NCBI RefSeq assembly: GCF_000697965.2 | Contig: NZ_CP015880.1 | Location: 1,240,001 to 1,304,000, forward strand | Direction of reading: 5' to 3' | Length of the DNA stretch: 64,000 nucleotides | Origin: Ensifer adhaerens | Lineage (GTDB): Bacteria > Pseudomonadota > Alphaproteobacteria > Rhizobiales > Rhizobiaceae | Shown here: positions 4,675-55,599 of the stretch, one piece after another | Layout: every line of letters starts with the position of its first letter | Position numbering within the stretch: the first letter of the stretch is position 1 | Notes under the pieces: model-generated | The model's input: the letters and a program-made list of their open reading frames with translations, nothing else | The model's database searches: none | What the model was told of the DNA's origin: nothing | Program-made: the position numbers and the translations under genes

Positions 4675-4688
4675 ATAGACTAATCTAT
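4675..4688. promoter_or_regulatory. AT-rich inverted repeat upstream of the DUF418 gene
   Basis: ATAGA-CTAA-TCTAT lies in an unusually AT-rich stretch (about 4660-4700) in the 244-base gap before the DUF418 gene. It resembles the size of a repressor half-site pair, but no regulator gene is adjacent. Confidence 0.25.
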
Positions 4689-4767
4689 CTAATAATTGGC
4701 ATGGACATACGTCAAGAGGGCCGCGCGATGTTGCTGCGGCCTCGTTCATGATGCGTGAAGAGGGTGT

Positions 4768-13033: not shown

Positions 13034-14080
13034 ATGGCTCCGCGAAAATCCGCGTCCGTTTCCAGCCGCAAGAGTGCCGCAAAGCCGGCGAAGAAAGACT
13101 TCAACGGCGGCACGTTCGCCGACTTCTCCAAACAGGAAGATCTGAGTGCCTACCGCGAGATGCTGCTGATCCGGCGTTTCGAGGAAAAGGCCGGCCAGCT
13201 CTATGGCATGGGCTTCATCGGCGGCTTCTGTCACCTCTACATCGGCCAGGAAGCCGTTGTCGTCGGCATGCAGATGGCGCTGAAGGAAGGCGACCAGGTC
13301 ATCACCGCCTACCGTGATCATGGCCACATGCTGGCCTGCGGCATGAGCGCCCGCGGCGTCATGGCCGAACTCACCGGTCGTCGCAGCGGCCTTTCCAAGG
13401 GGAAGGGCGGCTCGATGCACATGTTCTCCAAGGAAAAGCACTTCTATGGCGGCCACGGCATCGTCGGCGCCCAGGTGTCGCTCGGCACCGGTCTTGCCTT
13501 TGCCAACCGCTATCGCGGAAACGACAATGTGTCCGTTGCCTATTTCGGTGACGGCGCTGCCAACCAGGGCCAGGTCTACGAAAGCTTCAACATGGCGCAG
13601 CTCTGGAAGCTGCCGGTGATCTACGTGATCGAGAACAACCGCTACGCCATGGGTACTTCCGTTTCGCGGGCTTCGGCACAGACCGACTTCTCGCAGCGCG
13701 GCGTCTCCTTCAACATTCCGGGCTTCCAGGTCGACGGCATGGACGTGCGCGCGGTCAAGGCCGCTGGCGACGAGGCGGTCGAGCATTGCCGCTCGGGCAA
13801 GGGTCCGATCATCCTTGAGATGCAGACCTATCGCTACCGCGGTCACTCGATGTCCGATCCGGCGAAGTACCGCTCGAAGGACGAAGTGCAGAAGATGCGC
13901 TCGGAGCATGACCCGATCGAGCAGGTGAAGGCGCGTCTGACCGAAAAGGGTTGGGCGAACGAGGATGAGCTGAAGCAGATCGACAAGGAAGTCCGTGACA
14001 TCGTTGCCGACAGCGCCGATTTTGCCCAGGCCGATCCGGAGCCGGATGCATCCGAGCTCTACACCGACATCCTGCTTTGA
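13034..14080 (+). CDS. pdhA: Pyruvate dehydrogenase E1 component, alpha subunit
   Basis: Thiamine-diphosphate-dependent decarboxylation of pyruvate, as a heterotetramer with PdhB. A 348-residue protein with a basic Ser/Lys-rich N-terminal extension. The phosphorylation-site-like and active-site regions read [20 protein letters not shown]. The TPP-binding motif runs from GDGAANQG to [15 protein letters not shown] is also characteristic. GGGAGGAA precedes the ATG by 6 bases. It is first of the pdhA-pdhB-pdhC operon, with gaps of only 15-17 bases. Confidence 0.97.
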
Positions 14081-14097
14081 TCCGGGGAGGGACAAAC

Positions 14098-15468
14098 ATG
14101 CCAGTAGAAATTCTTATGCCCGCCCTTTCCCCGACCATGGAGGAAGGCACGCTCTCGAAATGGCTGAAGAACGAGGGGGACAAGGTGTCCTCCGGCGACG
14201 TCATTGCCGAAATCGAGACCGATAAGGCAACGATGGAAGTCGAAGCCGTCGATGAAGGCACGATCGGCAAGCTCTTGATTGCCGCCGGCACCGAAGGCGT
14301 CAAGGTCAATACCCCGATCGCCGTGCTGCTGCAAGACGGCGAAGGCGCTGGCGACATCGCCGCTCCGAAGGCCGAAGCGCCGAAGGCAGCCGCTGCCGAA
14401 GCGCCGGCCGCTTCCGCGCCGGCTCCGGTTGCAGCCCAGCCGAAGGTCGAAGTCGCTGCTGATCCGGCGATCCCTGCCGGCACCGAAATGGTGACGATGA
14501 CCGTTCGCGAAGCACTTCGCGACGCCATGGCCGAAGAAATGCGCGCAAGCGACGACGTCTTCGTCATGGGTGAAGAAGTCGCCGAATATCAGGGCGCCTA
14601 CAAGATTACCCAGGGCCTGCTGCAGGAATTCGGCGCCCGCCGTGTCATCGATACCCCGATCACTGAGCACGGCTTTGCCGGCGTCGGCGTCGGCGCTGCC
14701 ATGACCGGCCTTCGTCCGATCGTCGAGTTCATGACCTTCAACTTCGCCATGCAGGCGATCGACCAGATCATCAACTCCGCTGCCAAGACACTCTATATGT
14801 CCGGCGGCCAGATGGGCGCGCCGATCGTCTTCCGTGGCCCGAGCGGTGCCGCTGCCCGCGTGGCCGCCCAGCACTCGCAGTGCTACGCCGCCTGGTACAG
14901 CCATATCCCGGGCCTCAAGGTCGTCATGCCCTACACGGCTGCCGACGCCAAGGGCCTGCTCAAGGCTGCGATCCGCGACCCGAACCCGGTCATCTTCCTC
15001 GAAAACGAAATCCTCTACGGTCACTCCTTCGAAGTGCCGAAGCTTGACGATTTCGTGCTGCCGATCGGCAAGGCCCGTATCCACAAGATCGGCAAGGACG
15101 CAACGATCGTTTCCTTCGGTATCGGCATGACCTACGCCGTCAAGGCGGTTGCCGAACTCGAAGCCCAAGGCATCGATGTCGAACTGATCGACCTGCGCAC
15201 CATCCGTCCGATGGACCTGCCGACGGTCATCGAATCCGTCAAGAAGACCGGCCGTCTGGTCACCGTCGAAGAAGGCTATCCGCAGTCTTCCGTCGGCACC
15301 GAGATCGCAACCCGCGTCATGCAGCAGGCCTTCGACTACCTTGACGCCCCGATCCTGACGATCGCCGGCAAGGATGTGCCGATGCCTTACGCCGCGAACC
15401 TCGAGAAGCTCGCGCTTCCGAACGTCGCAGAGGTTGTCGATGCGGTGAAAGCCGTTTGCTACAAATAA
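14098..15468 (+). CDS. pdhB: Pyruvate dehydrogenase E1 component, beta subunit with N-terminal lipoyl domain
   Basis: A 456-residue protein. Residues 1-80 form a biotinyl/lipoyl domain with the lipoylation motif ETDKATM (Lys43). An Ala/Pro-rich linker (about 85-125) connects it to a normal E1-beta domain from [18 protein letters not shown] onward, with [29 protein letters not shown] and a C-terminal [11 protein letters not shown] block. A lipoyl domain on E1-beta is known from several alphaproteobacteria and is absent from most other bacteria. The start at [12 protein letters not shown] has a GGGGAGGGA ribosome-binding site. Confidence 0.97.
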
Positions 15469-15483
15469 GGGGAGGGCCCTTCG

Positions 15484-16821
15484 ATGCCTATCAACATCAC
15501 AATGCCTGCCCTCTCCCCGACGATGGAAGAAGGCAATCTGGCCAAGTGGCTCGTCAAGGAAGGCGACAAGGTCAAGTCCGGTGACGTGATTGCCGAGATC
15601 GAGACCGACAAGGCGACGATGGAAGTCGAAGCCGTCGACGAAGGCACCGTTGCCAAGATCGTCGTTCCCGCCGGCACCGATGGCGTCAAGGTCAATGCGC
15701 TGATCGCCGTTCTCGCCGCCGATGGCGAGGATGTCGCCGCCGCCGCCAAGGGCGGCAACGGCGCGGCAGCACCGGCACCCGCCGCCAAGGCCGAAGCGCC
15801 TGCACCGGCAGCGCCGAGCGCTCCGGCTGCGGCTCCTGCCGCTGCACCGGCAGCAGCCCAGCCGGCCAGGGCCGAGGGCGGCGCACGCGTCTTCTCCTCG
15901 CCGCTCGCACGCCGTCTGGCAAAGGACACGGGCATTGACCTGTCGGCAGTTGCCGGCACCGGTCCTCATGGCCGCGTCGTCAAGAAGGACGTCGAAGCCG
16001 CCGTCTCCGGTGGCGCTGCCAAGCCCGCCGCCGCACCGGCCGCCGGCGCTGCTGCTCCTGCAGCCGCACCGCTTGCCAAGGGCATGTCGGAAGACGCCGT
16101 TCTCAAGCTGTTCGAGCCGGGTTCCTACGAACTCGTGCCGCATGACGGCATGCGCAAGACGATCGCCAAGCGTCTCGTCGAATCCAAGCAGACGATCCCG
16201 CACTTCTACGTGTCGGTGGACTGCGAACTCGACGCGTTGCTGGCACTGCGTGCGCAGCTCAACGCAGCGGCTCCCGAGCAGGGTGGCAAGCCGGTCTACA
16301 AGCTCTCCGTCAACGACATGGTCATCAAGGCCCTGGCGCTGGCACTGCGCGATGTTCCGAACGCGAATGTCTCGTGGACCGAGAGCAACATGGTCAAGCA
16401 CAAGCACGCCGACGTCGGCGTTGCCGTGTCGATCCCGGGCGGCCTGATCACCCCGATCATCCGCCAGGCGGAACTGAAGAGCCTGTCGGCCATCTCCAAC
16501 GAGATGAAGGACCTCGGCCAGCGTGCCAAGGACCGCAAGCTAAAGCCCGAAGAATACCAGGGCGGCACGACTGCCGTCTCCAACATGGGCATGATGGGCG
16601 TCAAGAACTTCGCCGCCGTCGTCAACCCGCCGCATGCCACGATCCTCGCGGTCGGCGCCGGCGAGGAGCGCGTCGTCGTCAAGAACAAGCAGATGGTCAT
16701 CGCCAACGTCATGACCGTCACGCTTTCGACCGACCATCGCTGCGTCGATGGCGCGCTCGGTGCCGAACTGCTCGGTGCCTTCAAGCGCTACATCGAAAAC
16801 CCGATGGGCATGCTGGTCTGA
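15484..16821 (+). CDS. pdhC: Dihydrolipoamide acetyltransferase (E2 of pyruvate dehydrogenase)
   Basis: Core of the pyruvate dehydrogenase complex, transferring acetyl from lipoamide to CoA. The 445 residues hold one lipoyl domain (1-80, Lys43 in ETDKATM), an Ala/Pro linker, and a peripheral-subunit-binding domain ([32 protein letters not shown]). After a second linker comes the catalytic domain with the active-site motif DHRCVDG (His418, Asp422). Its lipoyl domain is very similar to that of PdhB just upstream, which suggests intra-operon domain duplication. A terminator follows within 10 bases. Confidence 0.97.
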
Positions 16822-16830
16822 GTTGGATGA

Positions 16831-16862
16831 GGGCCGGCCTTCGGGCCGGTCCGTTCCTTTTC
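16831..16862 (+). terminator. Terminator after pdhC
   Basis: Nine-base stem GGGCCGGCC / GGCCGGTCC (one G-T wobble) closed by a TTCG tetraloop, followed by GTTCCTTTTC. Confidence 0.75.
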
Positions 16863-16887
16863 GCGCAGTCGAAGGCGGGCCCGGACG

Positions 16888-42482: not shown

Positions 42483-44003
42483 ATGAGTCATGTTCCGCCA
42501 ACCGACCTGGAAGCCAGGATCCGCTGCAAATCGCTGCGTGATCGCATCGCTACGCCGGAAGAGGCGGCCGCGCTGATCAAGGACGGCATGACCATCGGCA
42601 TGAGCGGCTTCACCAAGGCCGGTGACGCGAAGGCCGTGCCGCTTGCCATGGCCGAACGGGCCGCACGGGAGAAGTTTCGCATCACGCTGATGACGGGCGC
42701 CTCGCTCGGTCATGACATCGACAAGACGCTGACAGAGGCGGGTGTTCTTGCCCGGCGCCTGCCGTTCCAGTCGGACCCGGTTCTGCGAGCGGCGATCAAC
42801 CGCGGCGAGGTGATGTTCATCGATCAGCATCTCTCGGAAACCGTCGAGCAGTTGCGGTCCGGCCAGATCAGCCCGATCGACTATGCAGTGGTCGAGGCGG
42901 TGGCGATCACCGAAGACGGCGGCATCGTTCCGTCGACATCGGTCGGCAATTCGGCAAGCTTCGCGATCCTGGCGAAGAAGGTGATCGTCGAGCTCAATCT
43001 CAGCCACAGTCCCGAACTCGAAGGCCTGCACGATATCTTCATTCCGGCGAAGCGACCGAGCCGCACGCCGATCCCGGTCGTTGCCTGCGATAGCCGTGCG
43101 GGCTCGCCCTACATTCCTGTCGATCCGGAAAAGATCGTCGCAATCGTCGTCACCGAGAAAGAGGACAGCGCCGCACGGATCTCTCCGCCGGATGCGGAGA
43201 CGACGGCGATCGCCGGCCATCTGATCGCCTTCTTGCAGGAGGAGGTGCGCAAGGGCCGCCTCGACATGACGCTCAACCCGCTGCAGGCGGGCATCGGCGT
43301 CATCGCCAATTCGGTGCTGAGCGGCCTGGTCGACAGTCCGTTCCATGATCTGCGTATGTATAGCGAGGTGCTGCAAGACAGCACGTTCGAGCTTTTCGAG
43401 GCCGGCAAGCTGAGCTTCGCCTCGGCCTCGTCGATGACGCTTTCCAGCGCCTGGGCTGATCGCGTGTTCCGCAACATCCGCGCCTACAAGGACAAGCTGG
43501 TGCTGCGGCCGCAGGAGGTGAGCAATCATCCGGAGATCATTCGGCGCCTCGGTGTCATCGGCATCAACACGGCGCTCGAATTCGATATCTACGGCAACGT
43601 CAACTCGACCCATGTCGGCGGTACCGACATGATGAACGGTATCGGCGGCTCCGGCGATTTCGCCCGCAACGCCTTCCTGTCGATCTTCGTCGCCAAGTCG
43701 GTTGCCAAGGGCGGGGCGATATCGTCTGTCGTGCCGATGGTGTCCCATGTCGACCACACGGAGCACGACGTCGATATTCTGGTGACCGAGCATGGTCTTG
43801 CAGATCTGCGCGGCCTGGCGCCGCGGGAGCGCGCACCCGTCATCATCGAAAACTGCTGCCACCCGGCCTATCGGGAGCTTTTGTCGGATTACTTCAATCG
43901 TGCGGTCGCCACCCGTGGCGGACAGACCCCGCATATTCTGGAAGAGGCTTTCGACTGGCATGTGCGCCGGCTGAAGACCGGCAGCATGATGCCGACGGCC
44001 TGA
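42483..44003 (+). CDS. Acetyl-CoA hydrolase/CoA-transferase family protein
   Basis: A 506-residue protein of the Cat1/Ach1 family, which either hydrolyses acetyl-CoA or transfers CoA between succinate and acetate. Motifs: DGMTIGMSGFTKAGDAKAVP, PIDYAVVEAVAITEDGG, LRMYSEVLQDSTFELFEAG, THVGGTDMMNGIGGSGDFA and VTEHGLADLRGLAPRERA. The start MSHVPPTDLEARI was preferred over an ATG 11 codons upstream. A succinyl-CoA:acetate CoA-transferase role is as likely as hydrolysis. The convergent GntR gene is a candidate regulator. Confidence 0.92.
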   Translation: MSHVPPTDLEARIRCKSLRDRIATPEEAAALIKDGMTIGMSGFTKAGDAKAVPLAMAERAAREKFRITLMTGASLGHDIDKTLTEAGVLARRLPFQSDPVLRAAINRGEVMFIDQHLSETVEQLRSGQISPIDYAVVEAVAITEDGGIVPSTSVGNSASFAILAKKVIVELNLSHSPELEGLHDIFIPAKRPSRTPIPVVACDSRAGSPYIPVDPEKIVAIVVTEKEDSAARISPPDAETTAIAGHLIAFLQEEVRKGRLDMTLNPLQAGIGVIANSVLSGLVDSPFHDLRMYSEVLQDSTFELFEAGKLSFASASSMTLSSAWADRVFRNIRAYKDKLVLRPQEVSNHPEIIRRLGVIGINTALEFDIYGNVNSTHVGGTDMMNGIGGSGDFARNAFLSIFVAKSVAKGGAISSVVPMVSHVDHTEHDVDILVTEHGLADLRGLAPRERAPVIIENCCHPAYRELLSDYFNRAVATRGGQTPHILEEAFDWHVRRLKTGSMMPTA

Positions 44004-44011
44004 AGTGTGTT

Positions 44012-44053
44012 GAAGAAACAACCGTGAAAGCAATCGCTTGCCGTTGTTTCTTC
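44012..44053. terminator. Bidirectional terminator between CoA-transferase and GntR genes
   Basis: An 11-bp perfect inverted repeat GAAGAAACAAC / GTTGTTTCTTC. The 20-base loop contains a further AAGC / GCTT pairing. T-rich or A-rich arms serve both convergent genes. Confidence 0.6.
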
Positions 44054-44072
44054 TCGTGCAGGCAAGGTTTCT

Positions 44073-44690
44073 TCAGGCGTCTGATAGATAGCTCATCAGG
44101 TCCGCCATCGCGGCCGACGCGCCTTCAGCGTCGGCCCGCTCGATCGCATCGATCACCGTGACATGGCGGCGGACCGATCCGGCCATCTTTTCAGGCGAGG
44201 ACGAAGCAAACCAGATGCGGCGCGCATGTGTCTGCAGCGGGGCAAGTGCTGCGGTCAGGAACCGGTTGGGGCAGGCTTCTTCCATCAGTTCGTCGAACAC
44301 CTTGTCGGCGACGAGAAAGCCCTCCATTTCGCCCGCATCAAGACAGGTGGCCATCTCCGCACCGCAAGCTTTCATCGCGCTTCGCTCCTCGGCGCTTGCG
44401 TGCGTTGCGACGAGGGCGGCGGCAAGCGGCTCCAGTTTCTGGCGCGTCTGCATGACATGCACCTGGTCGTCCGGCCGGATCGTGGTGATTTGCAAGCCGA
44501 CACGGGGACGGATATCCATGAGACCCTGCCAGGCCAGCTTCTGGATCGCCTCGCGAACCGGTGTTCGCCCAAGCCCGGCAAGTTCGATCAACTGCCTCTC
44601 GGTGACCAGGGCGCCGGGCTCGAGCTTCAGAGTGACGATCAGGCGTTCGAGCGCGAGATAGGCGAGGTGAGCCTGAGATTGCGGTGACAT
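44073..44690 (-). CDS. GntR-family regulator, FadR/FCD subfamily
   Basis: A 205-residue repressor-type protein. The N-terminal winged helix reads ALVTERQLIELAGLGRTPVREAIQKLAWQGLM. The C-terminal FCD ligand domain has the metal/ligand pattern around DKVFDELMEEACPN and HVTVIDAIERADAEGA. FCD regulators usually sense small carboxylates or sugar acids. The start MSPQSQAH was chosen because the longer frame lies across a palindrome likely to be its operator. Candidate targets are itself, the convergent CoA-transferase gene and the divergent redox/caspase operon. Confidence 0.9.
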   Translation of the reverse strand: MSPQSQAHLAYLALERLIVTLKLEPGALVTERQLIELAGLGRTPVREAIQKLAWQGLMDIRPRVGLQITTIRPDDQVHVMQTRQKLEPLAAALVATHASAEERSAMKACGAEMATCLDAGEMEGFLVADKVFDELMEEACPNRFLTAALAPLQTHARRIWFASSSPEKMAGSVRRHVTVIDAIERADAEGASAAMADLMSYLSDA

Positions 44691-45060
44691 GCCGTTCCTT
44701 TGGTTCTGATATATCAGTAGCTTGCACGATTTCATACAACCAGGCAAGCGCGCCGGTTGCCTGGCTTTGTGCAGGTCAAAGGGGGTGGTTTGCCTATGTG
44801 ATCAATAAAATAAGCGAATGCTTAAAAAATACGAATTTCAAAGGCATGAATAAACGAACCTCATAGGACGTTTCCAATAGGAATCGTGTTGACGAACCGA
44901 GAGGTGCTTGCCACTCTCCCAACAAAGGCCCGGCGTGAAAGAGGCGCGTGGGTCGTTGCGGCAAGAAGCTGGTTGCATGTTTCCTTGGTCGCTAGGGATC
45001 GAAGGCAACAGGCACAAGGCAAGGCAACAACCGTCAGCCATCGGCGTTGAGGGGCGCAAG
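44691..45060. other. 370-base divergent region between GntR gene and redox/caspase operon
   Basis: It holds the GntR palindrome at 44706-44717, then an AT-rich stretch (about 44795-44880) followed by TTGACG at 44889 without a good -10 partner. The frame of the flavocytochrome gene is open back to 44908, but that part reads as a polar, non-membrane sequence with no RBS. I therefore treat it as leader rather than coding. It is the likely control region for the five-gene operon. Confidence 0.5.
44706..44717. promoter_or_regulatory. Palindrome, candidate GntR operator
   Basis: CTGATATATCAG is a perfect 12-bp palindrome starting 16 bases upstream of the GntR start codon. The size and AT-centre are like known FadR/FCD-type operators. 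Binding is inferred. Confidence 0.5.
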
Positions 45061-46320
45061 ATGCAAGTGGGCGCGTTTCTGGTCTGGTCCTTGATGGCAT
45101 TTGCGGCGCTGCTGGCCGTACCCGCAGTCAGTCACACCAATGCATTGACGACATTTTCGCTGATGGCGTCGTCGGCGGCCTTTGTCGGCATGGCCGTCGC
45201 GCAGTTCATGGCCGCGCGCCCGCCGTTCGTCGAGGCTCTCTTCGGGGGGCTCGACCGTGTCTATCATTTTCATCGCAGGATAGGCATCTCGGTGCTGTGC
45301 CTCATCCTCGTGCACTATTTCCTGAAACCAGACTTCAAGGGCCTGGCGCTGACGAGCGGTCTGAACCAGCTTGCTGCATCCGCCGGCAAATATGCCTTTT
45401 ACGGTTTCGTCGTGCTGCTCGTTCTCAGTATCGTCAAGATCATACCGCGGACGAAGATCGAGATCCCCTACCATCTGTGGCGCTACACGCACCGCTTCAT
45501 CGGCCTGCTCTTCGTGATGGTCGCCTTCCACCAGATGTTCATCAAGCGCCCCTATGACGGTACCGCGCTTCTGGCGGTCTACCTCAACGCCTTCGCAGCA
45601 CTTGGCATCCTGAGCTACACCTATACCCAGCTGCTGCCCTGGCTCCGAACCCGCGGCTACGAAGTCTTCGATGTCGCCCGGGAGGACGGGGCGACGGTGA
45701 TTGCGGCGCGGCCGCTGCGCCGTGCCTTGCGCGCCAAGCCCGGGCAATTCGGTTTTCTGCGGGTGCTGAAGCCTGGGCTGCGCGAGCCGCATCCGTTTAC
45801 GATCGCTGGTATCGAGCCCGACGGGGTCGTGCGCTTCGCGATCAAGCCGCTTGGCGACTACACCCAGGCCCTGCGCGACGGAATCGCTGTCGGCGACCGG
45901 TTGAAGCTCGAGGGTGGCTATGGCCGCTTCAACCACCGCCGTGGCGGCAAGAAGCAGATCTGGCTCGCCGGCGGCATCGGCGTTACACCGTTCCTGGCGA
46001 TGGCGCGGCATCTCAATGGCGACGAGGGGCAGGACATCCACATGGTCTATTGCGTGCGCGACCGGCGCGAGGCGATCGGGCTGGAGACCTTCGAGGGGCA
46101 GGCCGGAAAGCTCGGCAACTTCACTTTTGTCCTGCACGATTCCTCCGTGGACGGGCGCCTGGATGCGGCCAAGCTCGCGAACGGTAGCGCGATCGATCCG
46201 GCGGAAGCCGATCTGTGGTTTTGCGGCCCGCCACCTCTCAGGGAGGCGATCGTCAAAGGTCTGAAAGATCTCGGCAAGCGGCCGAAGCGGGTTGAATTCG
46301 AGCGATTTCAGTTTCGATAG
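45061..46320 (+). CDS. NOX/ferric-reductase-like membrane flavocytochrome b
   Basis: A 419-residue protein that should carry electrons from cytosolic NAD(P)H across the inner membrane. N-terminal ferric-reductase-like domain (about 1-195) with six hydrophobic segments and two histidine pairs placed for bis-haem ligation: His71/His85 and His144/His157. C-terminal ferredoxin-reductase domain with the FAD motif HPFT (244-247), the nucleotide motif GGIGVTP (304-310), FCGP (387-390) and a terminal aromatic FQF. ATG at 45061 follows GAGGGG. It resembles bacterial NADPH oxidases; the acceptor (iron, oxygen or the next gene's cytochrome) is not known. First gene of a five-gene operon, 47 bases before the cytochrome gene. 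Confidence 0.88.
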   Translation: MQVGAFLVWSLMAFAALLAVPAVSHTNALTTFSLMASSAAFVGMAVAQFMAARPPFVEALFGGLDRVYHFHRRIGISVLCLILVHYFLKPDFKGLALTSGLNQLAASAGKYAFYGFVVLLVLSIVKIIPRTKIEIPYHLWRYTHRFIGLLFVMVAFHQMFIKRPYDGTALLAVYLNAFAALGILSYTYTQLLPWLRTRGYEVFDVAREDGATVIAARPLRRALRAKPGQFGFLRVLKPGLREPHPFTIAGIEPDGVVRFAIKPLGDYTQALRDGIAVGDRLKLEGGYGRFNHRRGGKKQIWLAGGIGVTPFLAMARHLNGDEGQDIHMVYCVRDRREAIGLETFEGQAGKLGNFTFVLHDSSVDGRLDAAKLANGSAIDPAEADLWFCGPPPLREAIVKGLKDLGKRPKRVEFERFQFR

Positions 46321-46367
46321 TGCAGCGGATTTCAGTAGCGATTCTATTGTTTTAGGGAGTGGGTTTC

Positions 46368-49300
46368 ATGCGCGGTCTGCAGAGAAAGCGAGAAGGCGCC
46401 TCGTCATTGTCCGGTCTTGGCCGCGGATATTGGGCCGTTTCATTTGCGGCGCTGGTCGCAGTCTCGCTCTGTCCCGCTGGTGCCTCGGCGCGCGATGCCT
46501 TCGCTGAGGATGCCTTCTCCACCTACAAGGCCAACGTCGACAACGGCAAATACATGTTCAACGCCGCAGGCTGCGGCGCCTGCCACGGCTCCGGCGACAA
46601 CACCGAACTGCTCTCCGGCGGCATGGAGATGAAGACGGCGATCGGCACCTTCTATGCGCCGAACATTTCGCCGCACGCCAATGGCATCGGCGGCTGGACC
46701 AATGCGCAGTTTCTGAATGCGGTTCTGGTCGGTCTCGATCGCGAGGGCAACAACCTCTATCCGGTTATGCCCTACACCTCCTATGGCGGCATGAAGCCGG
46801 AGGATGCGCTCGACATCAAAGCCTATATCGAGACGTTACCCCAGGCGGATGCAGTGTCGAAAGAGGATGAGATTGCTTTTCCGTTCAGTCGTCAGACGAC
46901 GATCACGCTCTGGAAGCGCAGCCACTTCACGGTGCCGGCCTACCAGCCGCGCGAGGAGACGCAAGCCGAGCGCGGCCGCTATCTGGTCGAGAATGTCGGC
47001 GGCTGCGGCGATTGCCACACACCGCGCACCACGACCTATGGGCTCGACCTGGAGCGCGCCTATGAGGGCGAAAAGGATTTGAGCGGCGCGGTCGCGCCCG
47101 ACATCAGCAAGACGAAGATGGCCGGTCTTGCCTCGCCCGACGTTTTCACCAGGGGCCTGATCGAGGAAGGCAAGAAGCTCTCGGGCGCGCCGATCAGCGA
47201 TCCGGTGATGCGGCGTATAGCCAAGGGGCTGAGCGTTCTTTCTGACGACGATCGCCGCGCGATCTATGCCTTCCTTGCCGATCGTGAAGTGAAGGCCCCC
47301 GCGCCGGTGGCGCAGTCGGTCACGGCCGTCTGCAAGGAGAATACGGCGACCGAAGCGCTGGGCGGCGGCAATGCGGCGCTGGCGCAGCAGGCCGATGCCT
47401 TCATCGGCAGATACTGCCGCAACTGTCACGGGCCGGGCGAAAGTTCGCAGGGGAGCTACCCGGCGGGCGAACTCGCCTCGATTGCCGCCGACGCAAACTT
47501 CGTGACCCCCGGAGATGCCTCGAAGTCACGGCTCTACGCGACTGTGGTCAGCGGCCGCATGCCGCTTGGCAAGCGCCCCTCTGCCGAAGAGATCAAGGTG
47601 CTGGAGGACTGGATCAACGCACTGAACGAAAAGAGCCTGCCGCAGACGGTGGCCGCAAAACCGGCGCGCGCCCGCCCGATGTTGGGTTATGGCCAGTTCG
47701 TCGATGCGGCGCTGAAGGACATCGAGACGGTCAGTGCCCTCGACCGCCCCTACATGCGCTACTTTTCCTATCGCGACCAGTACAACGGCATGATGGGCTG
47801 CGAGGACGACCAGACCTTCATGAAGCGCATGGACGTGCTTGCCGGCGGCTTTAAGAAGTTGCTGAATTCGCTGTCCTACGGGCCAAAGCTGGTGCTTCCG
47901 ACAGAGGTCGACGGCACCAATGGCTTGCTGGTGCGCGTTGATCTGCGCGAACTGCAATGGGACGCGGCGGACTATGACTTCCTGATCAAACGCTATTTCT
48001 ATGGGATTGATCCCGAGAGCGATGCGTCGCTTTCGGCCCTTTCGAAGGAAACGGCGACGCAACTGCCGATCATGCGGGTCGACTGGTTCATGAGCAACGG
48101 CGCGCGCCCGGAGATCTACAACCGGCTGATGAAGTTGCCGACCGAGATCGCCGAACTCGAAAAGCGCTTCAAGATCGACGTGGCCGGCAACATTCGCAGG
48201 CGCGATGTGTTGCGGGCCGGTTTCGCCGACGGCTCGTCCGGGGTTTCCGACCACAACCGCATGCTCGAACGGCACGACATGCCGTTCGGCGGCTACTACT
48301 GGAAGTCCTATGATTTCGGCGGCGACATCGGCAAGCAGGTGCTGAAGCGCTTCCCGCACGGGCCTCGGGAATTGGCACCGCTCGACGCGGGCCTCGTGCC
48401 CTTCGAGCACGACGGCGGCGAAATGATCTTCTCGTTGCCGAACGGCCTGCAGGGCTACTACCTCTCGACGTCAGCAGGAAAGCAGCTTGATGTCGGGCCG
48501 ACCACCATCGTGTCCTTCCGCAAGCGCCCGATCGGCAAGGGCGTCGAGATCATCAACGCGCGGTCCTGTGTCGATTGCCACGCCGATGGCATCCTTTCGA
48601 AACGCGATCAGCTGCGCGAGCAGATCGAGACGTCGACGCTGTTCAGCAAGGACCAACAGGACGTGCTGCTTGCCATGTATGTGAAGCAGGAGGAACTGGA
48701 CGAAACCTATCGCAAGGACCGCGAGCGCTTCGTCAACGCGTTGAAGGTGCTGGGCATCACGGAGCCGACGCCCGATGGGGGCCTCCAGAGCAAGCATGCG
48801 CCGGGCGAGGCGGAGCTCATCACCTACTTTGCCGACAAGTACGAAGACGAGCTCGACTTCGATGCCCTGGCGGCCGAGTTTGACATGACGCCCAGGCAAT
48901 TCTCAGAAACGATCAAGCGGGTGACAAACACCGATGTCCTGCGCCTCGGGCTCGACTGGGTGACGACGCTGGAAGCGGGCGGAACCATTCCGCGCAACGA
49001 GGTCGAGCAACAATATGCATTGCTGATGGCGCCGCTAACCCAGCGCCGTCCGCTCGACACGACGGCGATCGTCATTGCCGGTTCCGAGCCGATGGTGGAC
49101 GACAGGCCGCAGTCGGTCGCGGCCGCCGTGCCGGACTATCGCAAGGAGGATGCGGGGACTGGCCACAAGCTCGAGCTGGCCCTGAACGTGAAGTCGACGA
49201 CGGCGAAGGTTGGCGACGAGCTTTCCTTCGAACTCAGCGCCAACCAGGCCTGCGAGCTGCAAATCCTCTATGTCGAGGAGAACGGCAACGTCGAGGTCAT

Positions 49301-49595
49301 CCCGGACGTGATGATCGGCAACACCACGCTTAAGCCGGGCGAGAGACGCCTGATCCCGCAGCCGGGCACGGGCACGCTCACCTTCGACACACCTGCGCCC
49401 GCCGAAACGATGCTGGCCTTCTGCCGTGCCGGCGGGCTCGGTGACCAGAAGCTGACGGTGGAGAAGGCACGCCAATATGTCGCGACGTCGCGGTTGCCGC
49501 CGACACGGGGACTCGCGATCAACCTGGCCAAGCGGGCGCAGGGTGACGCGGGTGCCAGCAGTGTTCAGATGGTGACGTTCGAGATCAAGGATTGA
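46368..49595 (+). CDS. Large exported tetrahaem cytochrome c with DUF4384-like C terminus
   Basis: A 1075-residue protein with a signal peptide (basic RKREG, hydrophobic core, cleavage after AGASA near residue 41). Four CXXCH haem sites: Cys69-His73, Cys213-His217, Cys350-His354 and Cys734-His738. Residues 55-305 resemble the two-haem cytochrome subunits of membrane alcohol/gluconate dehydrogenases (GIGGWTNAQF, LYPVMPYTSYGGM). The third haem domain ends SGRMPLGKRPSAEEIKVLEDW, a planctomycete-type cytochrome signature. A 290-residue haem-free stretch then leads to the fourth haem, where FSLPNGLQGYYLS precedes ARSCVDCHADG. Residues about 935-1020 look like a DUF4384 beta domain. ATG at 46368 with AGGGAG was preferred over an in-frame GTG. 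Confidence 0.88.
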   Translation: MRGLQRKREGASSLSGLGRGYWAVSFAALVAVSLCPAGASARDAFAEDAFSTYKANVDNGKYMFNAAGCGACHGSGDNTELLSGGMEMKTAIGTFYAPNISPHANGIGGWTNAQFLNAVLVGLDREGNNLYPVMPYTSYGGMKPEDALDIKAYIETLPQADAVSKEDEIAFPFSRQTTITLWKRSHFTVPAYQPREETQAERGRYLVENVGGCGDCHTPRTTTYGLDLERAYEGEKDLSGAVAPDISKTKMAGLASPDVFTRGLIEEGKKLSGAPISDPVMRRIAKGLSVLSDDDRRAIYAFLADREVKAPAPVAQSVTAVCKENTATEALGGGNAALAQQADAFIGRYCRNCHGPGESSQGSYPAGELASIAADANFVTPGDASKSRLYATVVSGRMPLGKRPSAEEIKVLEDWINALNEKSLPQTVAAKPARARPMLGYGQFVDAALKDIETVSALDRPYMRYFSYRDQYNGMMGCEDDQTFMKRMDVLAGGFKKLLNSLSYGPKLVLPTEVDGTNGLLVRVDLRELQWDAADYDFLIKRYFYGIDPESDASLSALSKETATQLPIMRVDWFMSNGARPEIYNRLMKLPTEIAELEKRFKIDVAGNIRRRDVLRAGFADGSSGVSDHNRMLERHDMPFGGYYWKSYDFGGDIGKQVLKRFPHGPRELAPLDAGLVPFEHDGGEMIFSLPNGLQGYYLSTSAGKQLDVGPTTIVSFRKRPIGKGVEIINARSCVDCHADGILSKRDQLREQIETSTLFSKDQQDVLLAMYVKQEELDETYRKDRERFVNALKVLGITEPTPDGGLQSKHAPGEAELITYFADKYEDELDFDALAAEFDMTPRQFSETIKRVTNTDVLRLGLDWVTTLEAGGTIPRNEVEQQYALLMAPLTQRRPLDTTAIVIAGSEPMVDDRPQSVAAAVPDYRKEDAGTGHKLELALNVKSTTAKVGDELSFELSANQACELQILYVEENGNVEVIPDVMIGNTTLKPGERRLIPQPGTGTLTFDTPAPAETMLAFCRAGGLGDQKLTVEKARQYVATSRLPPTRGLAINLAKRAQGDAGASSVQMVTFEIKD

Positions 49596-49605
49596 TGGTC
49601 GAGTC

Positions 49606-50505
49606 ATGGTTCAGCTACGAGCATTTCTCCTCGCTTCGGCGGTTCTGGCGGTCTTCACCGCGCCGGTCATGGCCTGCGACGGTCTTCGCCTGGCCTCCGA
49701 GGCGCTGAACCGCGCCGACGAGGCCGGCACTAAGGTGGCGGCCGACCCCGTAAACATGAAGGGTTGCTCGGCGACCGAGATCGCGCTCACCCGGCGCATC
49801 GCGGCGCTCGCAACCTTCAACCGGGTTGCAGCGGCAGTGGGGCAAGGCGCGAAGCTTGAAACCTTCGAAGCGGAACTGACGGCCGCAAGCCGCGACGCCG
49901 GCGGCCCCTGGCAGATCCTCGATGCGCTCGGCGATATCAAGCGTGAGCGCAAGGATTACGACGCCGCGGCGACCTCCTATCAGCAAGCGCTGGAAGATGC
50001 GGCAAACGAGGAACTGACACCGGATTGGATGGCGCCGGACAAGGCCTACATCGAGCGGCTGGACCGCCTGGCTTCGGAAATGCGGCTCGCTGCAACCAAG
50101 CCGGTCAAGCTCGTCGCGCGCGGCGCCTGCAAGTTCTCCTATCGCGGTGTTTCGATCCGGAAAAAGGCGACGCCGGTGCGCTACGTCTTCGGCACGGCCG
50201 AGTTTACGCCCGAAGGCCTCGAGTCGGCCAGGGACCTGTTCGAGTGCCTGAAGTCGGCAAAGCCGGCCGCGATCACCCTGATCGGTCACACCGATCCGGT
50301 AGGTACCCCCGAGGCGAACATGGCGCTCTCGCTCGCCCGTGCAAAAGCGTTGGCTCAATACCTCGTCGACGCCGGTTATCCCGGCACCTGCACGGTTGTC
50401 GGCAGGGGCGAGGACGAACCGTTCAAACCCGATGATCCGACCGCCTATAGCGAGGAGATGTTGCACCAGCTCGACCGGCGCGTGGATGTGGATGTGGGGA
50501 AATGA
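49606..50505 (+). CDS. OmpA-like peptidoglycan-binding protein with TPR-type helices
   Basis: A 299-residue exported protein. The signal peptide ends VMA before Cys24. This is a weak lipobox, since Pro at -4 breaks the usual pattern, so either a soluble periplasmic protein or a lipoprotein is possible. A TPR-like helix pair (ALGDIKRERKDYDAAATSYQ) lies near 107-126. The OmpA C-terminal domain (about 190-299) has LIGHTDPVGTPEANMALS, ALAQYLVDAGY, GRGEDEP and LDRRVDV, the residues that contact meso-diaminopimelate in peptidoglycan. It starts 10 bases after the cytochrome and overlaps the first caspase gene by 4 bp. Likely anchors the system to the cell wall. Confidence 0.88.
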   Translation: MVQLRAFLLASAVLAVFTAPVMACDGLRLASEALNRADEAGTKVAADPVNMKGCSATEIALTRRIAALATFNRVAAAVGQGAKLETFEAELTAASRDAGGPWQILDALGDIKRERKDYDAAATSYQQALEDAANEELTPDWMAPDKAYIERLDRLASEMRLAATKPVKLVARGACKFSYRGVSIRKKATPVRYVFGTAEFTPEGLESARDLFECLKSAKPAAITLIGHTDPVGTPEANMALSLARAKALAQYLVDAGYPGTCTVVGRGEDEPFKPDDPTAYSEEMLHQLDRRVDVDVGK

Positions 50506-52055
50506 CAGTGCTGTGCAGAACCCTGCTTGCGATGAGCTTGCTCGCATTGCCGGCGGCCCCGGCGATGGCCTCGACCTCGGCGCTGGTCGTCGGGGTGGAC
50601 AAGTATCCGCACGAAGTAAGCCTCGATGGTGCCGTCCGCGATGCGCAAGACGTCACGCAGGCGCTGAAGGCGGCGGATGTCGCCCCGATCCGCCAATTCA
50701 TCAACGAACAGGCGACCAAGGATGCAATCCGTGCGGCCTGGGGCGAGCTTGTGGCGGCCGCTGAGCGCGGCGATACGATCGTCTTCACCTATGCCGGGCA
50801 CGGTGCGCAGATGCCGGAGCTGGTCGCCGGCAGTGAGGAGGACGGGCTCGACGAATTCCTGGAGTTGCCGGGCTTCGACCGGGCGCGTGCTGAGGAGACG
50901 GCGAGCGAAATCATCGTCGACAACGAGCTCAGCGCCTGGTTCGCGGAGGCGGAAGCCAAGGGCATTCATGTCCTGTTCGTCTCCGACAGCTGTTATTCAG
51001 GCGGCATGAACCGCTCGATCTCCGGCAAGACGCGGCTGGCGCCGATGGTGCGCGCCAAGCTGCCGCCGCCATCCAAGGAGGCGCTGTCCGGCGCCAAGGT
51101 GAGGGACGTGGAGCTGTCGCAGGTGACGATCCTCGCCGCATCGCTCGAAAGCCAGCCGACCCCGGAAGTGGTTATCGGCGGCGAGCCCCGCGGCGCCCTG
51201 AGCTGGAGTTTTGCCCGTGCGTTGGAAGGCGCCGCCGATCGCGATGGCGACGGGCGGATTTCGCGGGTCGAACTCGAAGACTACGTGTTTTCCAACGTCA
51301 AGCTGCAGTCGGAAGCCCTGCAGGTGCCGAACTTCACGCCGCAACTGGCGCGCTCCGACAAGGAAATCGTGCTGTCCCTGCCGCGTAGCGCCAAGGTCGG
51401 CGTGGCGCCAACAGTGAGCGGCACGAAGCATGCACTGAAGTCGCCGCGCGAAACCGGATGGACGGGCAATTTGCCATTGAGCGTCGTCGGTGACATGCCT
51501 GATCTTGCCAATATCGGTGGCGACGGCGTGCCCTACCGGTGGGAGGCGACATCCGGTGTCTTCTATACGCCGAACGGGGACGTCGCCGCGGAACATGTCG
51601 CGCCCAAAAGGCTCCAGGGCGTGGTCGACAAATTCATCCTGGTGGATTTTCTGAAAGCACTTGCGGCGCAGAGCCCGGGAGCCGTTTCGCTGAAGCCCGT
51701 CAAGGACATCTACTTTGCCGGCGACCGCCTGAACGTCGAGGCGCCGCAGGGCGGCTATGCCAACATGCTGGTCTTCAACCTCGCCAATACCGGCGAAGCA
51801 CAACTGCTCGACGTGCAGATTGCCGGCAGCGAAAGCCATGCCTTCAAGCTGCGTGACCTGGAGGTGGTCAAGCCCTTCGGTGCGGACCATCTGGTCGTCA
51901 TCGCGACCAATGCGCCTGTCGACGCGATCGCGGCCGCCTTTGCCAATTCGGACCTCGACGCAGCGGCCTTGCTGCGCTTGCTCGAAACGCGCCTGGAAGG
52001 GAGTGAGAGTACGATCGCGGTTCAACCGCTTTACACGAGAGGTCAGGGCCAATGA
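50502..52055 (+). CDS. Exported caspase-family (C14) peptidase with EF-hand-like loop, paralogue 1
   Basis: A 517-residue protein with a signal peptide (cleavage after about residue 23, PAMA). The caspase p20-like domain spans about 25-260: ALVVGVDKYP, TYAGHGAQ with His100, and SDSCYSGGM with Cys164. Asp162 two residues before the Cys is as in metacaspases and predicts cleavage after Arg/Lys. Residues 246-257 (DRDGDGRISRVE) match the 12-residue EF-hand calcium loop. About 397-475 form a beta-rich DUF4384-like domain (DIYFAGDRLNVEAPQGGY, NMLVFNLANTGEAQLL). Overlaps OmpA and the second caspase gene by 4 bp each. Substrates unknown. Confidence 0.88.
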   Translation: MTVLCRTLLAMSLLALPAAPAMASTSALVVGVDKYPHEVSLDGAVRDAQDVTQALKAADVAPIRQFINEQATKDAIRAAWGELVAAAERGDTIVFTYAGHGAQMPELVAGSEEDGLDEFLELPGFDRARAEETASEIIVDNELSAWFAEAEAKGIHVLFVSDSCYSGGMNRSISGKTRLAPMVRAKLPPPSKEALSGAKVRDVELSQVTILAASLESQPTPEVVIGGEPRGALSWSFARALEGAADRDGDGRISRVELEDYVFSNVKLQSEALQVPNFTPQLARSDKEIVLSLPRSAKVGVAPTVSGTKHALKSPRETGWTGNLPLSVVGDMPDLANIGGDGVPYRWEATSGVFYTPNGDVAAEHVAPKRLQGVVDKFILVDFLKALAAQSPGAVSLKPVKDIYFAGDRLNVEAPQGGYANMLVFNLANTGEAQLLDVQIAGSESHAFKLRDLEVVKPFGADHLVVIATNAPVDAIAAAFANSDLDAAALLRLLETRLEGSESTIAVQPLYTRGQGQ

Positions 52056-53575
52056 GCATGGGCGCCAGATCGCGAGTGCCGTTCCTTCACGCCCTTGCGT
52101 GTTTCATGCTGCTGGCTGCTCCTGCGGTCGCCGGAGATCGGGCTTTGCTGATCGGGGTCGGCAACTATCAGAATCTGCCGACCGAGTTTTCCCTGCCCGG
52201 ACCGGCGAACGATCTGGTCGCGATGCAAAGGCTGCTCACGGAACGGCTCGGCTTCGACAGTGCCTCGATCCGCGTGCTGAAGGACGGGCAGGCGACCAGA
52301 GCTGAAATCCTGTCATCCATGAACGGCTGGCTTGTCGATGCGACGAAGCCCGGCGATCGCGTCTATCTCTATTTTTCAGGCCACGGCCTGCAGGTGAAGG
52401 ATGCGGATGGCGACGAAGCGGATGGGCTGGATGAAGCGATTGCGCCTGCCGACATTGCCGCCGGTGAAACGGACTGGCAAGGCGCTGTCCTCGACGACGA
52501 GATCGATGCGGTGCTGGAGCGCCTGAAGGGGCGCGCTGTGACGGTCGTGATCGACGCCTGTCACTCCGGCACGATCTCCCGGTCGCTGTCCGAGGACATC
52601 AAAAAGCCTATCGACGGCGCCCGCTTTCTCCCGCGTCCCGATGCCAAGCCGGTCGAGCAAGCGCTGACCCGCGGCCTTAGGATTGATCTTGCCCTCGTCG
52701 ACAAGCCGAAGCTCGTCGATGCCGGGGTGACCGCCTGGAGTGCGGCGGCGCCCTATCAGGTCGCCTGGGACGATGTCCGGCTACCGACAGCGGATCGGCA
52801 CGGGGTTTTCACCGCAGCCTTCGTCGCCGGCCAGACCGGCGACGCTGCCGATGGCAATGGCAACGGATTGACGAGCAACGCCGAGCTTCTTGGATATGTA
52901 AAGGCGCAATCTGCCTCCTACTGCGCCTTGCAGGAGCAATGCGGCAATCTCGACCCGCAGTTGGAAGGCAGACCCGAGGCGCTCGGCGACAGCGCGATGG
53001 TGCCGGAAAAGCGCGATGCGGATGGCAGCGGGCAGGGTGCGTATACCATTACTCCGAATGCAGCGGTGCCGAGCTATCAGGCGGCCAACCCCATCGATGC
53101 CGTCGGTGATATCATCGGCAAGAGCGAAGCCGGCGATGTCATGCTCTCTATCGACAAGCCGACCACCATGAAGGCCGGCGAAGTCTTCAAACTGACGGTC
53201 AACAGCCACACGGCCGGCAATCTCCTGATTTTCGACGTCAACAGCCAGGGCAATGCAACACAGATTTTCCCGAACGAGTTCGCGCAAAAGATCACGACGT
53301 TGGCGCCGGACGTGCCGCTGACCTTGCCGGATGAATATTACGGCTTCGATTTCGAGGCCTCGGGCGAGGGGGACGGCATTTTCGTGGCGCTTGTCGTCAG
53401 CGATGCTGTCGACTTGAGCGATCTTGCGCCGATATCGCGGGGCCTCAAGGTGGAGGTCGATGCGCGCGAGACCTTGAGCGAGATCATCGCGCGGCTGCAG
53501 AAGAACTGGACCGAAGATCTCGACACGCGCGGAATCCATTGGTCAGTCGGCACCCTGCGCTATCGCGTCGAGTAG
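52052..53575 (+). CDS. Exported caspase-family (C14) peptidase with EF-hand-like loop, paralogue 2
   Basis: A 507-residue protein with a signal peptide (LACFMLLAAPAVA, cleavage near residue 27). The caspase domain has ALLIGVGNYQNLP, YFSGHGLQ with His111, the acidic DADGDEADGLDEAI and DACHSGT with Cys170. The DxCHSG form is the metacaspase signature, implying basic P1 specificity. A second EF-hand-like loop, DGNGNGLTSNAE, lies at 267-278. The C-terminal DUF4384-like domain (about 363-451) contains KAGEVFKLTVNSHTAGNL and FDVNSQGNATQIFPNEF. It shares layout with the upstream paralogue but is clearly diverged, so the duplication is old. Last gene of the operon, followed by a strong terminator. 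Confidence 0.9.
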   Translation: MSMGARSRVPFLHALACFMLLAAPAVAGDRALLIGVGNYQNLPTEFSLPGPANDLVAMQRLLTERLGFDSASIRVLKDGQATRAEILSSMNGWLVDATKPGDRVYLYFSGHGLQVKDADGDEADGLDEAIAPADIAAGETDWQGAVLDDEIDAVLERLKGRAVTVVIDACHSGTISRSLSEDIKKPIDGARFLPRPDAKPVEQALTRGLRIDLALVDKPKLVDAGVTAWSAAAPYQVAWDDVRLPTADRHGVFTAAFVAGQTGDAADGNGNGLTSNAELLGYVKAQSASYCALQEQCGNLDPQLEGRPEALGDSAMVPEKRDADGSGQGAYTITPNAAVPSYQAANPIDAVGDIIGKSEAGDVMLSIDKPTTMKAGEVFKLTVNSHTAGNLLIFDVNSQGNATQIFPNEFAQKITTLAPDVPLTLPDEYYGFDFEASGEGDGIFVALVVSDAVDLSDLAPISRGLKVEVDARETLSEIIARLQKNWTEDLDTRGIHWSVGTLRYRVE

Positions 53576-53594
53576 GATCGATAACGGACAGAAC

Positions 53595-53630
53595 GAAAAA
53601 ACCCGCCTCGATGAGGCGGGCTTCTTTTTG
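53595..53630. terminator. Bidirectional terminator between caspase operon and aapP
   Basis: An A-run, then CCCGCCTC-GAT-GAGGCGGG, then CTTCTTTTT. It is symmetric enough to stop the caspase operon on the plus strand and aapP on the minus strand. Confidence 0.88.
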
Positions 53631-53647
53631 TGTCGTCTCGTCCGGTT

Positions 53648-54424
53648 CTAGTGCAGGATCTGGCTGAGGAAGAGCTTGGTGCGCTCGTGCTGCGGATTGT
53701 CGAAGAACTCAGCCGGCGAGTTCTGCTCGACGATCTGGCCCTGGTCCATGAAGATCACGCGGTTGGCGACCTGGCGGGCGAAGCCCATTTCGTGGGTCAC
53801 GCACAGCATGGTCATGCCTTCTTCGGCGAGCGACACCATGGTGTCGAGCACTTCCTTGACCATTTCCGGGTCGAGCGCCGAGGTCGGCTCATCGAAGAGC
53901 AGGATCTTCGGCTTCATGCACAGCGAGCGGGCGATCGCCACGCGCTGCTGCTGGCCGCCCGAAAGCTGGCCCGGATACTTGTTCGCCTGCTCGGGGATCT
54001 TGACGCGCTTCAGGAAGTGCATCGCGATTTCTTCGGCCTGCTTCTTCGGCATCTTGCGCACCCAGATCGGGGCAAGCGTGCAGTTTTCGAGGATCGTCAG
54101 GTGCGGGAAGAGGTTGAAGTGCTGGAACACCATGCCGACTTCGCGGCGCACTTCGTCGATCTTCTTCAGATCGTTGGTGAGCTCGATGCCGTCGACGACG
54201 ATCTTGCCCTTCTGGTGCTCTTCGAGCCGATTGATGCAGCGGATCATCGTCGACTTGCCGGAGCCCGACGGGCCGGCAATGACGATGCGCTCGCCCTTCA
54301 TAACCTTCAGGTTGATGTCACGAAGGACGTGGAAGTCCCCGTACCACTTGTTCATTCCAGTGATTTCGACTGCGACATCCGTTGCGGAAACAGTCATTTT
54401 GGAAGCAGTGGCTGCGTTTGCCAT
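53648..54424 (-). CDS. aapP: General L-amino acid ABC transporter, ATP-binding protein
   Basis: A 258-residue ABC ATPase energising broad-specificity amino acid uptake. Walker [11 protein letters not shown]-loop [14 protein letters not shown], signature LSGGQQQR, Walker [14 protein letters not shown] and the H-loop [11 protein letters not shown] are all intact. It is last of aapJ-aapQ-aapM-aapP on the minus strand, 17 bases after aapM. Aap is known in Rhizobium leguminosarum and related genera, where it is important in symbiotic amino acid cycling. Confidence 0.97.
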
Positions 54425-54441
54425 GCGATCCTCCCCTCATT

Positions 54442-55599
54442 TTATCGTTTATGGGCCGTGTCGAGCACGCGTTCCATGAAACCTGAATAGCGCGACATAC
54501 CAAAGCAGAAAAGCCAGAATATGAAGCCAGCGAAAATTAGCCCTGAGATCGGCGTCACCGAAGAGGCCCAGTTGGCGTCCGTGAAGTTGAAGCGGACGAT
54601 GCCGAGCAGGTCGAACATGCCGATGATCGACACCAGTGACGTGTCCTTGAAGAGGCCGATGAAGGTGTTGACGATGCCCGGAATCACGAGCTTCAGCGCC
54701 TGTGGCAGCACGATGAGGTTCATCTTCTGCCAGAAGCTGAGGCCGAGGGAATCCGCGCCCTCATACTGCCCCTTCGGGATAGCCTGGAGGCCGCCGCGCA
54801 CCACTTCGGCCATGTAGGCCGAGGCAAAGAACGACACGCCGATCAGTGCACGCAGGAACTTGTCGAAGGTGACGCCCTGCGGCAGGAACAGTGGCAGCAT
54901 GACGCTCGCCATGAAGAGCACGGTAATCAGAGGGATGCCGCGCACCAGTTCGATGAAGGCGGTGCAGAGCATCTTGATCACAGGCATATGCGATCGCCGC
55001 CCCAGTGCCAGAAGAATGCCGAGTGGCAACGACACGGCAATGCCGACGAACGAAAGGATGAGCGTCACCATCAGACCGCCCCAGAGCGGCGTCTCGACGT
55101 AGGTCAGTCCGAACCAGCCGCCGGGAAGCAGGATCAAGGAAATGATCGGCAGCACGGCGAAGAGCAGGATGGCGTTGATGCCCTTGAAGGGAGCCTTCGG
55201 GATCAACATCGGAATGAGGAAAAGCACGAAGAGGATGCCGACCAGCGTCGGTCTCCAACGCTCATCGAGCGGGTAGCGGCCGTAGGCGAATTGGTCGAGT
55301 TTTGCGTTGACGAAGGCCCAGCACGCACCGCTCCAGCCATCCGGCTGCGAGCCTCCTTGAGCAACCGTGGCGCAAACGCCACGGCCGCCGCCGGTCCAGG
55401 CGGCGTCGATGAAGAGCCACTGGATGGCCGGAGGCACGAGCCACGCAAGCGCAAGCAGGCTGACGATGGTGAGCACCGCATCCTTTGGCGTCGCGAACAG
55501 GTTTTCGCGCAGCCAATGGACGATGCCACCTTCGGCGACCGGCGGGGCGGACCCTTCGATCATTGAGGTACGGACAAAAGTTGCCTGGTGTGTGTTCAT
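54442..55599 (-). CDS. aapM: General L-amino acid ABC transporter, permease
   Basis: A 385-residue inner-membrane permease of the polar amino acid (HisM/GlnP) family. A long N-terminal extension with extra helices is followed by the core permease, including the EAA-like loop ([21 protein letters not shown], split here across residues around 270-290) that docks on AapP. Start MNTHQATFV was chosen; an ATG 11 codons upstream would overlap aapQ. Only 4 bases separate it from aapQ. Confidence 0.96.

Follow-up and report, generated by a model that had tools for sequence, protein, structure and literature searches.

The stretch of DNA analysed here (the window) comprises 64,000 nucleotides of Ensifer adhaerens, positions 1,240,001 to 1,304,000 of contig NZ_CP015880.1, in a genome of 7.27 Mb assembled in three contigs. 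It carries five consecutive genes, g1 to g5, which appear to form one envelope unit combining trans-membrane electron transfer, haem c, wall binding and caspase-type peptidases. Based on open reading frames and Pfam domains, and on four CXXCH motifs in the case of g2, they encode a SpNOX-like flavocytochrome b of 419 aa (g1, 45061..46320), a tetrahaem c-type cytochrome of 1075 aa (g2, 46368..49595), an OmpA-type protein of 299 aa (g3, 49606..50505), a C14 caspase of 517 aa (g4, 50502..52055) and a C14 caspase with a DUF4384 module of 507 aa (g5, 52052..53575). All features described below lie on the forward strand. The start of g1 is the ATG at 45061, and the upstream frame is open to a TTG at 44908. 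The original prediction, made from the sequence alone, had proposed these five families as one envelope unit; Pfam and motifs confirm the families, and its layout is exact to the base, with spacers of 47 bases between g1 and g2 and 10 bases between g2 and g3, and overlaps of 4 bases at both g3/g4 and g4/g5. The four signal peptides that it assigned correspond to N-terminal hydrophobic, signal-like segments in g2 to g5, judged by hydropathy and by eye, so that export of these proteins is putative. The DUF4384 modules, a domain of g2 without known fold and the restriction of g3 to a wall-binding OmpA domain go beyond that prediction.

A terminator-like hairpin follows g5 (53602..53620; 8 pairs, 7 of them G-C, with a T-rich tail; CTTCTTTTTG). 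It is placed between convergent genes and is the strongest among 10 terminator-like sites in a scan of positions 43500-55000. The single strong terminator claimed for the operon is upheld to that extent, but the scan by itself is little proof because shuffled sequence averages 9.0 such sites.

The domains Ferric_reduct, FAD-binding and NAD-binding were recognized in g1 by Pfam. The haem-ligand histidines 71, 85, 144 and 157 are present in 89 of 89 aligned rows with the spacing His71-X13-His85 and His144-X12-His157, and the NADPH oxidase (NOX) motifs HPFTI and GIGVTP are found at residues 244 and 305. In extracytoplasmic reductases of the MsrPQ/YedZ type, a ferric-reductase-type membrane haem protein supplies electrons to the periplasm, and g1 is a protein of this general kind. 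It differs from MsrPQ in having a tetrahaem cytochrome as its likely acceptor, and no MsrP molybdoenzyme (molybdopterin) domain was found by Pfam in the five genes. Among the nearest solved proteins, 8qt6, which we take to be SpNOX, matches g1 residues 32-418 with E 4.8e-39. The likeness to SpNOX of Streptococcus pneumoniae comprises a near whole-length match, the bis-His spacing and the FAD and NADPH motifs. A second match, 8qq5 (E 8.1e-27), is designated SpNOX DH, the dehydrogenase domain, in the part of PMC11031084 used here. Moreover, g1 passes all three NOX motif filters published in PMC5676040, and the sections of that paper on which we draw describe direct reduction of cytochrome c by SpNOX, which is oxygen-independent and also proceeds under argon, at lower efficiency. 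What sets g1 apart from SpNOX is its partner, a multihaem cytochrome c, and an operon that also encodes a wall binder and peptidases.

Pfam assigns Cytochrom_C and DUF4384 to g2, and the residues of its four CXXCH sites are conserved in the aligned rows reaching them (91 rows). Residues 57-426 (46536..47645) form a trihaem arm with the fold of the cytochrome subunits of fructose, alcohol and aldehyde dehydrogenases of Gluconobacter. In contrast to the Gluconobacter subunit, the arm of g2 is fused to a domain with the fourth haem site (residues 425-905, 47640..49082) and to a DUF4384 module (residues 947-1018, 49206..49421; PF14326, 27.6 bits with a cut-off of 27). A search limited to the five genes found no catalytic dehydrogenase subunit among them. 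The fourth CXXCH (residues 734-738, 48567..48581), assigned by motif and conservation, is present in no fewer than 90% of a set of 43 sequences that includes 23 proteins beyond 20 alphaproteobacterial rows. The DUF4384 module aligns with that of g5 (hhalign E 4.5e-05, probability 69%). The closest named relatives of g2, among the best 80 of 286, are from Ensifer adhaerens strains with 92% identity.

The structure predicted for residues 425-905 of g2 is confident, and nothing convincing in the PDB was matched by Foldseek or VIA on the isolated model; this is an absence of match and not a proven new fold, since VIA re-examines Foldseek's own list and its rows mostly cover model residues 168-374. 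The domain has relatives in Planctomycetes, and Planctomycete-type cytochromes share its densely conserved core. It occurs in Planctomycete-type PSCyt1 proteins, often together with the PSCyt1 haem and mostly at 32-39% identity, and some of these proteins also carry DUF4384. Unlike g2, some have WD40, TPR, kinase or FGE-type domains attached, and the trihaem arm is absent from the six sequences inspected. Divergent g2-like proteins with two CXXCH sites were also observed beside OmpA-like genes at two loci (L121 and L129), and g1 was not recognized within those stretches.

The OmpA peptidoglycan-binding domain of g3 spans residues 193-278 (50182..50439; PF00691, E 1.7e-12). D230 and R245, presumably the Asp and Arg that bind peptidoglycan in OmpA domains, are present in 50 of 50 aligned rows, as expected of a wall binder. 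Weak TPR matches precede the domain, and judging from this domain content (the OmpA domain and weak TPR alone in Pfam) g3 would lack the N-terminal barrel of the OmpA porin.

The catalytic dyads of the two peptidases are His100 and Cys164 in g4 (50799-50801 and 50991-50993; PF00656, E 5.9e-12) and His111 and Cys170 in g5 (52382-52384 and 52559-52561; PF00656, E 1.6e-21). In g4 both residues are found in 50 of 50 rows reaching the site, with one row gapped, while in g5 the His is kept in 47 and the Cys in 49 of 50 aligned rows. g4 also has an EF-hand-like loop at residues ~246-257 (within 50502..52055; EF-hand_5, E 0.016), and the DUF4384 module of g5 lies at 53171-53377 (PF14326, E 5.3e-11). 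With regard to the cleavage after Arg or Lys and the calcium dependence that go with this peptidase family, the loop in g4 is the only visible sign. By domain and His-Cys dyad both proteins belong with the C14 peptidases known as metacaspases and orthocaspases, and among solved structures they are closest to metacaspases and to GSU0716, a bacterial C14 protein. Besides the catalytic Cys, g4 has one Cys, located in the signal-like segment. A lone thiol in the expected oxidising compartment prompts the idea of redox control without demonstrating it. The operon of g4 and g5 resembles those in the consulted part of a metacaspase survey (PMC3501461) in the dyad, whose conservation in alphaproteobacteria is given as 75%, and in the presence of OmpA, which is noted in 14 of 217 operons. 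The same part lists 70 of the 217 operons without assigned function, and the word 'cytochrome' occurs nowhere in the main text of the survey.

A total of 286 relatives of g2 were found, and the loci of the best 80 were analysed, with neighbours called by phmmer at 40 bits or more using queries cut from the same loci. The g1 gene is located directly 5' of g2 in 78 of the 80; the other two (L046 and L096) are cut by contig ends. An automatic count gave 76, as the g2 frames of L086 and L103 had been called too long over a g1 that is present. Genes in broken pieces in L048 (where g1 is in two pieces), L061, L065, L078 and L123 were taken as they stand. Orthologues of g2-g3-g4-g5 follow one another in order in 49 loci, with g1 in front in 48 of them, the 49th (L046) being cut by a contig end. 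In one of the 48 (L108) an additional OmpA-C14-C14 set lies in between, and eight further loci combine g1-g2 with weaker orthologues of g3-g4. The original prediction had named rare co-occurrence of the five genes as the outcome that would speak against it; with all five in order in 48 of 80 loci, such rarity was not observed.

Sixty-six loci have more than 5 kb on both sides. On either strand, 64 of these have OmpA within 3 kb (it lies at 4.1 kb in L072 and at 7.1 kb in L100) and 64 have a peptidase of C14 or CHAT type within 5 kb, the exceptions being L083 and L085, which have none; 62 have both. For the 14 loci with shorter flanks the corresponding numbers are 12 for OmpA (missed in L098, and by 82 bases in L082) and 10 for the peptidase (missed in L073, L074, L098 and L105). 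Outside the five-gene version the genes come in varying orders, often with a peptidase that is not orthologous. Pfam analysis of 26 different neighbour proteins placed 13 of them as C14 (10), CHAT (2) or OmpA (1), the rest being other genes or unmatched; the alternative peptidases include C14 proteins with SH3, Sel1, or WD40 and NADase_transloc, and CHAT proteins with TPR or Sel1 repeats. The usual company of the g1-g2 core is thus OmpA plus a C14 or CHAT peptidase, often a non-orthologous one. The predicted five-gene set does co-occur as a unit, but it is only one version of a wider module in which g1-g2 is the constant core. Layout, motifs and this co-occurrence together support the single envelope unit that had been proposed.

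The C14 background was estimated from 157 matches in 30 genomes of about 143 Mb, which were chosen for g2 (G749 for a divergent relative). At about 1.1 matches per Mb, roughly 1.6% of sites would have a C14 gene within 5 kb by chance. Twenty stretches around C14 genes away from g2 were fetched, and one (L150) was excluded as a g2 locus; in the remaining 19 controls OmpA occurs in two (L143 and L154) and g1 or g2 in none. In a separate plasmid collection, only one of 72,556 records gave a g2 match at E 1e-50, on a Neorhizobium plasmid with 40.6% identity, where the row of genes is annotated by others as caspase family, OmpA family, ferredoxin reductase family and c-type cytochrome. A chance neighbourhood can be rejected on the strength of the 80 loci, the 19 controls and the annotated plasmid.

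A tree was built by a quick method from 74 C14 domains of 24 of the 80 loci, the window and the control stretches, with matches below 60 bits dropped and long branches flagged. The label 'next to g2' needs 16 changes on this tree, at least 10 of them forced by starred branches, while shuffled labels need 21.1 on average, with one of 500 shuffles as low as 16. A branch with full support separates the lineages of g4 and g5 from the remaining C14 domains sampled; the group comprises 19 rows, of which 17 are adjacent to g2 and 2 lie at a greater distance within the L108 locus. A functional link is indicated most strongly by the repeated pairing with non-orthologous peptidases of the caspase or CHAT type, and linkage of g1-g2 with OmpA and C14/CHAT genes at the level of the module is very probable.

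A profile of the g2 middle domain matched 30 of 297 genomes sampled from the family (some partially or divergently), 2 of 385 from the class and 3 of 398 from the phylum, each count including the window's genome. Matches to g1 of at least 397 bits occur in 20 of 61 relatives' genomes, the same 20 that possess long g2 matches (split over two contigs in G016). Weaker g1-like genes without g2 are present in G019, G043, G057 and another contig of G027, and g4-like genes without g2 in G046, G041 and G045. In one locus (L156:6356-10200) OmpA, g4 and g5 form a complete block that lacks g1-g2; the gene before it encodes a protein with two stretches of DUF4384, possibly an alternative front end. Two others have an OmpA fragment with g4 (L157) and g4-g5 (L155), likewise without g2. 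These three loci indicate that g3-g5 is an independent block to which g1-g2 can be added.

In the genus itself, g1, g2 and g4 are present in 16 of 16 genomes searched. The operon is flanked 5' by a divergent regulator gene, GntR-like by eye, and 3' by convergent ABC-transporter genes, also named by eye; homologues of both occur within the fetched stretch in 11 of the 11 closest loci (L029-L038 and L065). In PADLOC-DB 2023 the generic caspase model was the only one matched by g4 and g5, and g3 had weak matches to MotB-like (ZorB) and TPR models. The genus-wide presence, the homologous flanks, the PADLOC result and the single plasmid record do not support a mobile or defence cassette. An RNA element at the locus was likewise rejected, with no Rfam match at gathering score in 43500-55000.

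We interpret the locus as an envelope redox-protease module in which the redox state of g2 controls the peptidases, and give this reading a probability of roughly 0.4. The roles suggested in the original prediction, namely redox sensing, envelope stress response, regulated cell death or defence, are hypothetical. In the module, g1 would oxidise cytosolic NAD(P)H and send the electrons via FAD and two haems b through the inner membrane, where g2 would accept them and pass them along its trihaem arm to haem 4; electron flow from g1 to g2 is probable. Haem 4, seated in the domain without known fold, would be the likely reaction centre. The assembly would be anchored to peptidoglycan by g3, and its proteolytic output would be g4 and g5, or a non-orthologous C14/CHAT peptidase in other lineages; the DUF4384 modules of g2 and g5 may act as contacts. 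We infer export, the direction of electron flow and the formation of a complex from these features. The redox state of g2 would most likely signal how many electrons are supplied, or how much oxidant is present, at the wall and might control the peptidases, directly or via the catalytic thiol, so that envelope proteins, damaged or regulatory, would be cut under redox stress. Such gating and the choice of substrate are conjecture, and redox control of the peptidases by g1-g2, taken as a claim of its own, is rather doubtful. A pathway in which electrons passing from NAD(P)H through a NOX-type protein and an extracytoplasmic cytochrome c turn secreted caspases or CHAT peptidases on or off at the wall is unlikely; it would be a relay from redox to proteolysis analogous to the cytochrome c-caspase link in animal apoptosis, though of independent origin, and its reaction centre would lie in a haem domain of new fold.

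Several observations weigh against a redox-controlled module. Genes can be neighbours without their products being coupled physically or by redox chemistry. All loci were selected through g2, and 44 of them share one gene order, mostly in closely related genera; the 16 changes on the C14 tree, compared with 21.1 for shuffled labels, mean that the association is partly plain inheritance. Two loci (L083 and L085) contain g1, g2 and OmpA with no C14 or CHAT gene found in the stretch, and in L074 none was found in 8.5 kb downstream. As g3-g4-g5 exist without g1-g2, the caspases do not always depend on g1-g2 as an electron source. Because trihaem arms of this type are known chiefly as parts of dehydrogenases, the electron flow could be reversed. 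Finally, a DUF4384 contact in g4 is unsupported, its C-terminal part giving an unconvincing alignment to the module (E 0.03 to 0.07, probability ~1%).

The genes could also share a purpose without being coupled, if reductive g1-g2 and the proteolytic OmpA-caspase genes belonged to one regulon for envelope stress or quality control in which the peptidases are not redox-controlled. The OmpA-g4-g5 block standing alone in another genome behind the two-DUF4384 protein agrees with this, as does the substitution of non-orthologous peptidases, which is expected if any such protease serves. However, among the families searched (C14 and CHAT), a member lies within 5 kb in 64 of 66 loci, and we regard such a regulon as somewhat unlikely. 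The NOX filters passed by g1, and the SpNOX dehydrogenase domain among its nearest solved relatives, are also compatible with a DUOX-like oxidant module, where g1-g2 would make superoxide, peroxide or a haem-4 oxidant outside the cytoplasm and the caspases would effect regulated lysis, neighbour killing or defence. This is improbable, for the multihaem partner beside g1 suggests haem c rather than O2 as the acceptor, and the presence in all 16 genus genomes, the homologous flanks of the 11 closest loci, the generic caspase and weak ZorB/TPR results of PADLOC and the one plasmid record in 72,556 speak against it.

The resemblance of g2 residues 57-426 to dehydrogenase cytochrome subunits, together with the dense core that the middle domain has in common with Planctomycete-type cytochromes, would fit a reverse flow. 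The domain without known fold would then oxidise an envelope substrate, the trihaem arm would collect the electrons, and g1 or quinone would remove them. Against this, FNR-type NOX domains normally oxidise NAD(P)H and the five genes include no dehydrogenase subunit gene, which leaves reverse flow quite improbable. Pfam labels g1 ferric-reductase-like, as would suit ordinary genes for metal or extracellular electron transfer that are near caspases by coincidence; with the adjacency recurring in several gene orders and with non-orthologous peptidases, coincidence is disfavoured by the co-occurrence and has only the slightest chance of being correct.

Bacterial caspases are common and their roles are mostly obscure. 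The conserved company of NAD(P)H-driven electron export, a multihaem cytochrome and a wall binder offers a concrete setting for putative secreted caspases in some soil and marine bacteria, in which the gene set is conserved, and the pairing with non-orthologous C14/CHAT proteins argues for a redox core that operates together with a peptidase of this kind. A genomic setting is likewise provided for a haem domain without known fold that recurs in Planctomycete-type proteins. If the coupling of redox core and peptidases were true, it would represent a novel type of extracytoplasmic proteolysis under redox control. Titles and abstract beginnings among the open-access matches listed, a scope that leaves out most subscription journals and preprints, contain no description of the five-gene set. 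No named system seen within that scope has this combination, a statement on the gene set as distinct from a proven function, and every part except the middle domain of g2 belongs to a known family.

Some individual loci differ in the genes around the core. In L083 a 967-residue protein beside OmpA (13966-16866) has no convincing Pfam match and might be a peptidase that went unrecognised. Between OmpA and g1 in L072 lies a protein of 1324 residues (4359-8330) with C14 at its C-terminus, and at least three tandem C14 genes follow OmpA and adjoin g1-g2 in L120 (genome G214) and L104. As a pair of protease inhibitor and wall-synthesis protein beside the module, genes for an alpha-2-macroglobulin and a penicillin-binding protein (Transgly, Transpeptidase and BiPBP_C) are located 5' of C14-SH3, OmpA, g1 and g2 in L094 (2-8452) and L089 (2-8446); the genes were recognized by Pfam in L094 and by similarity clusters in L089.

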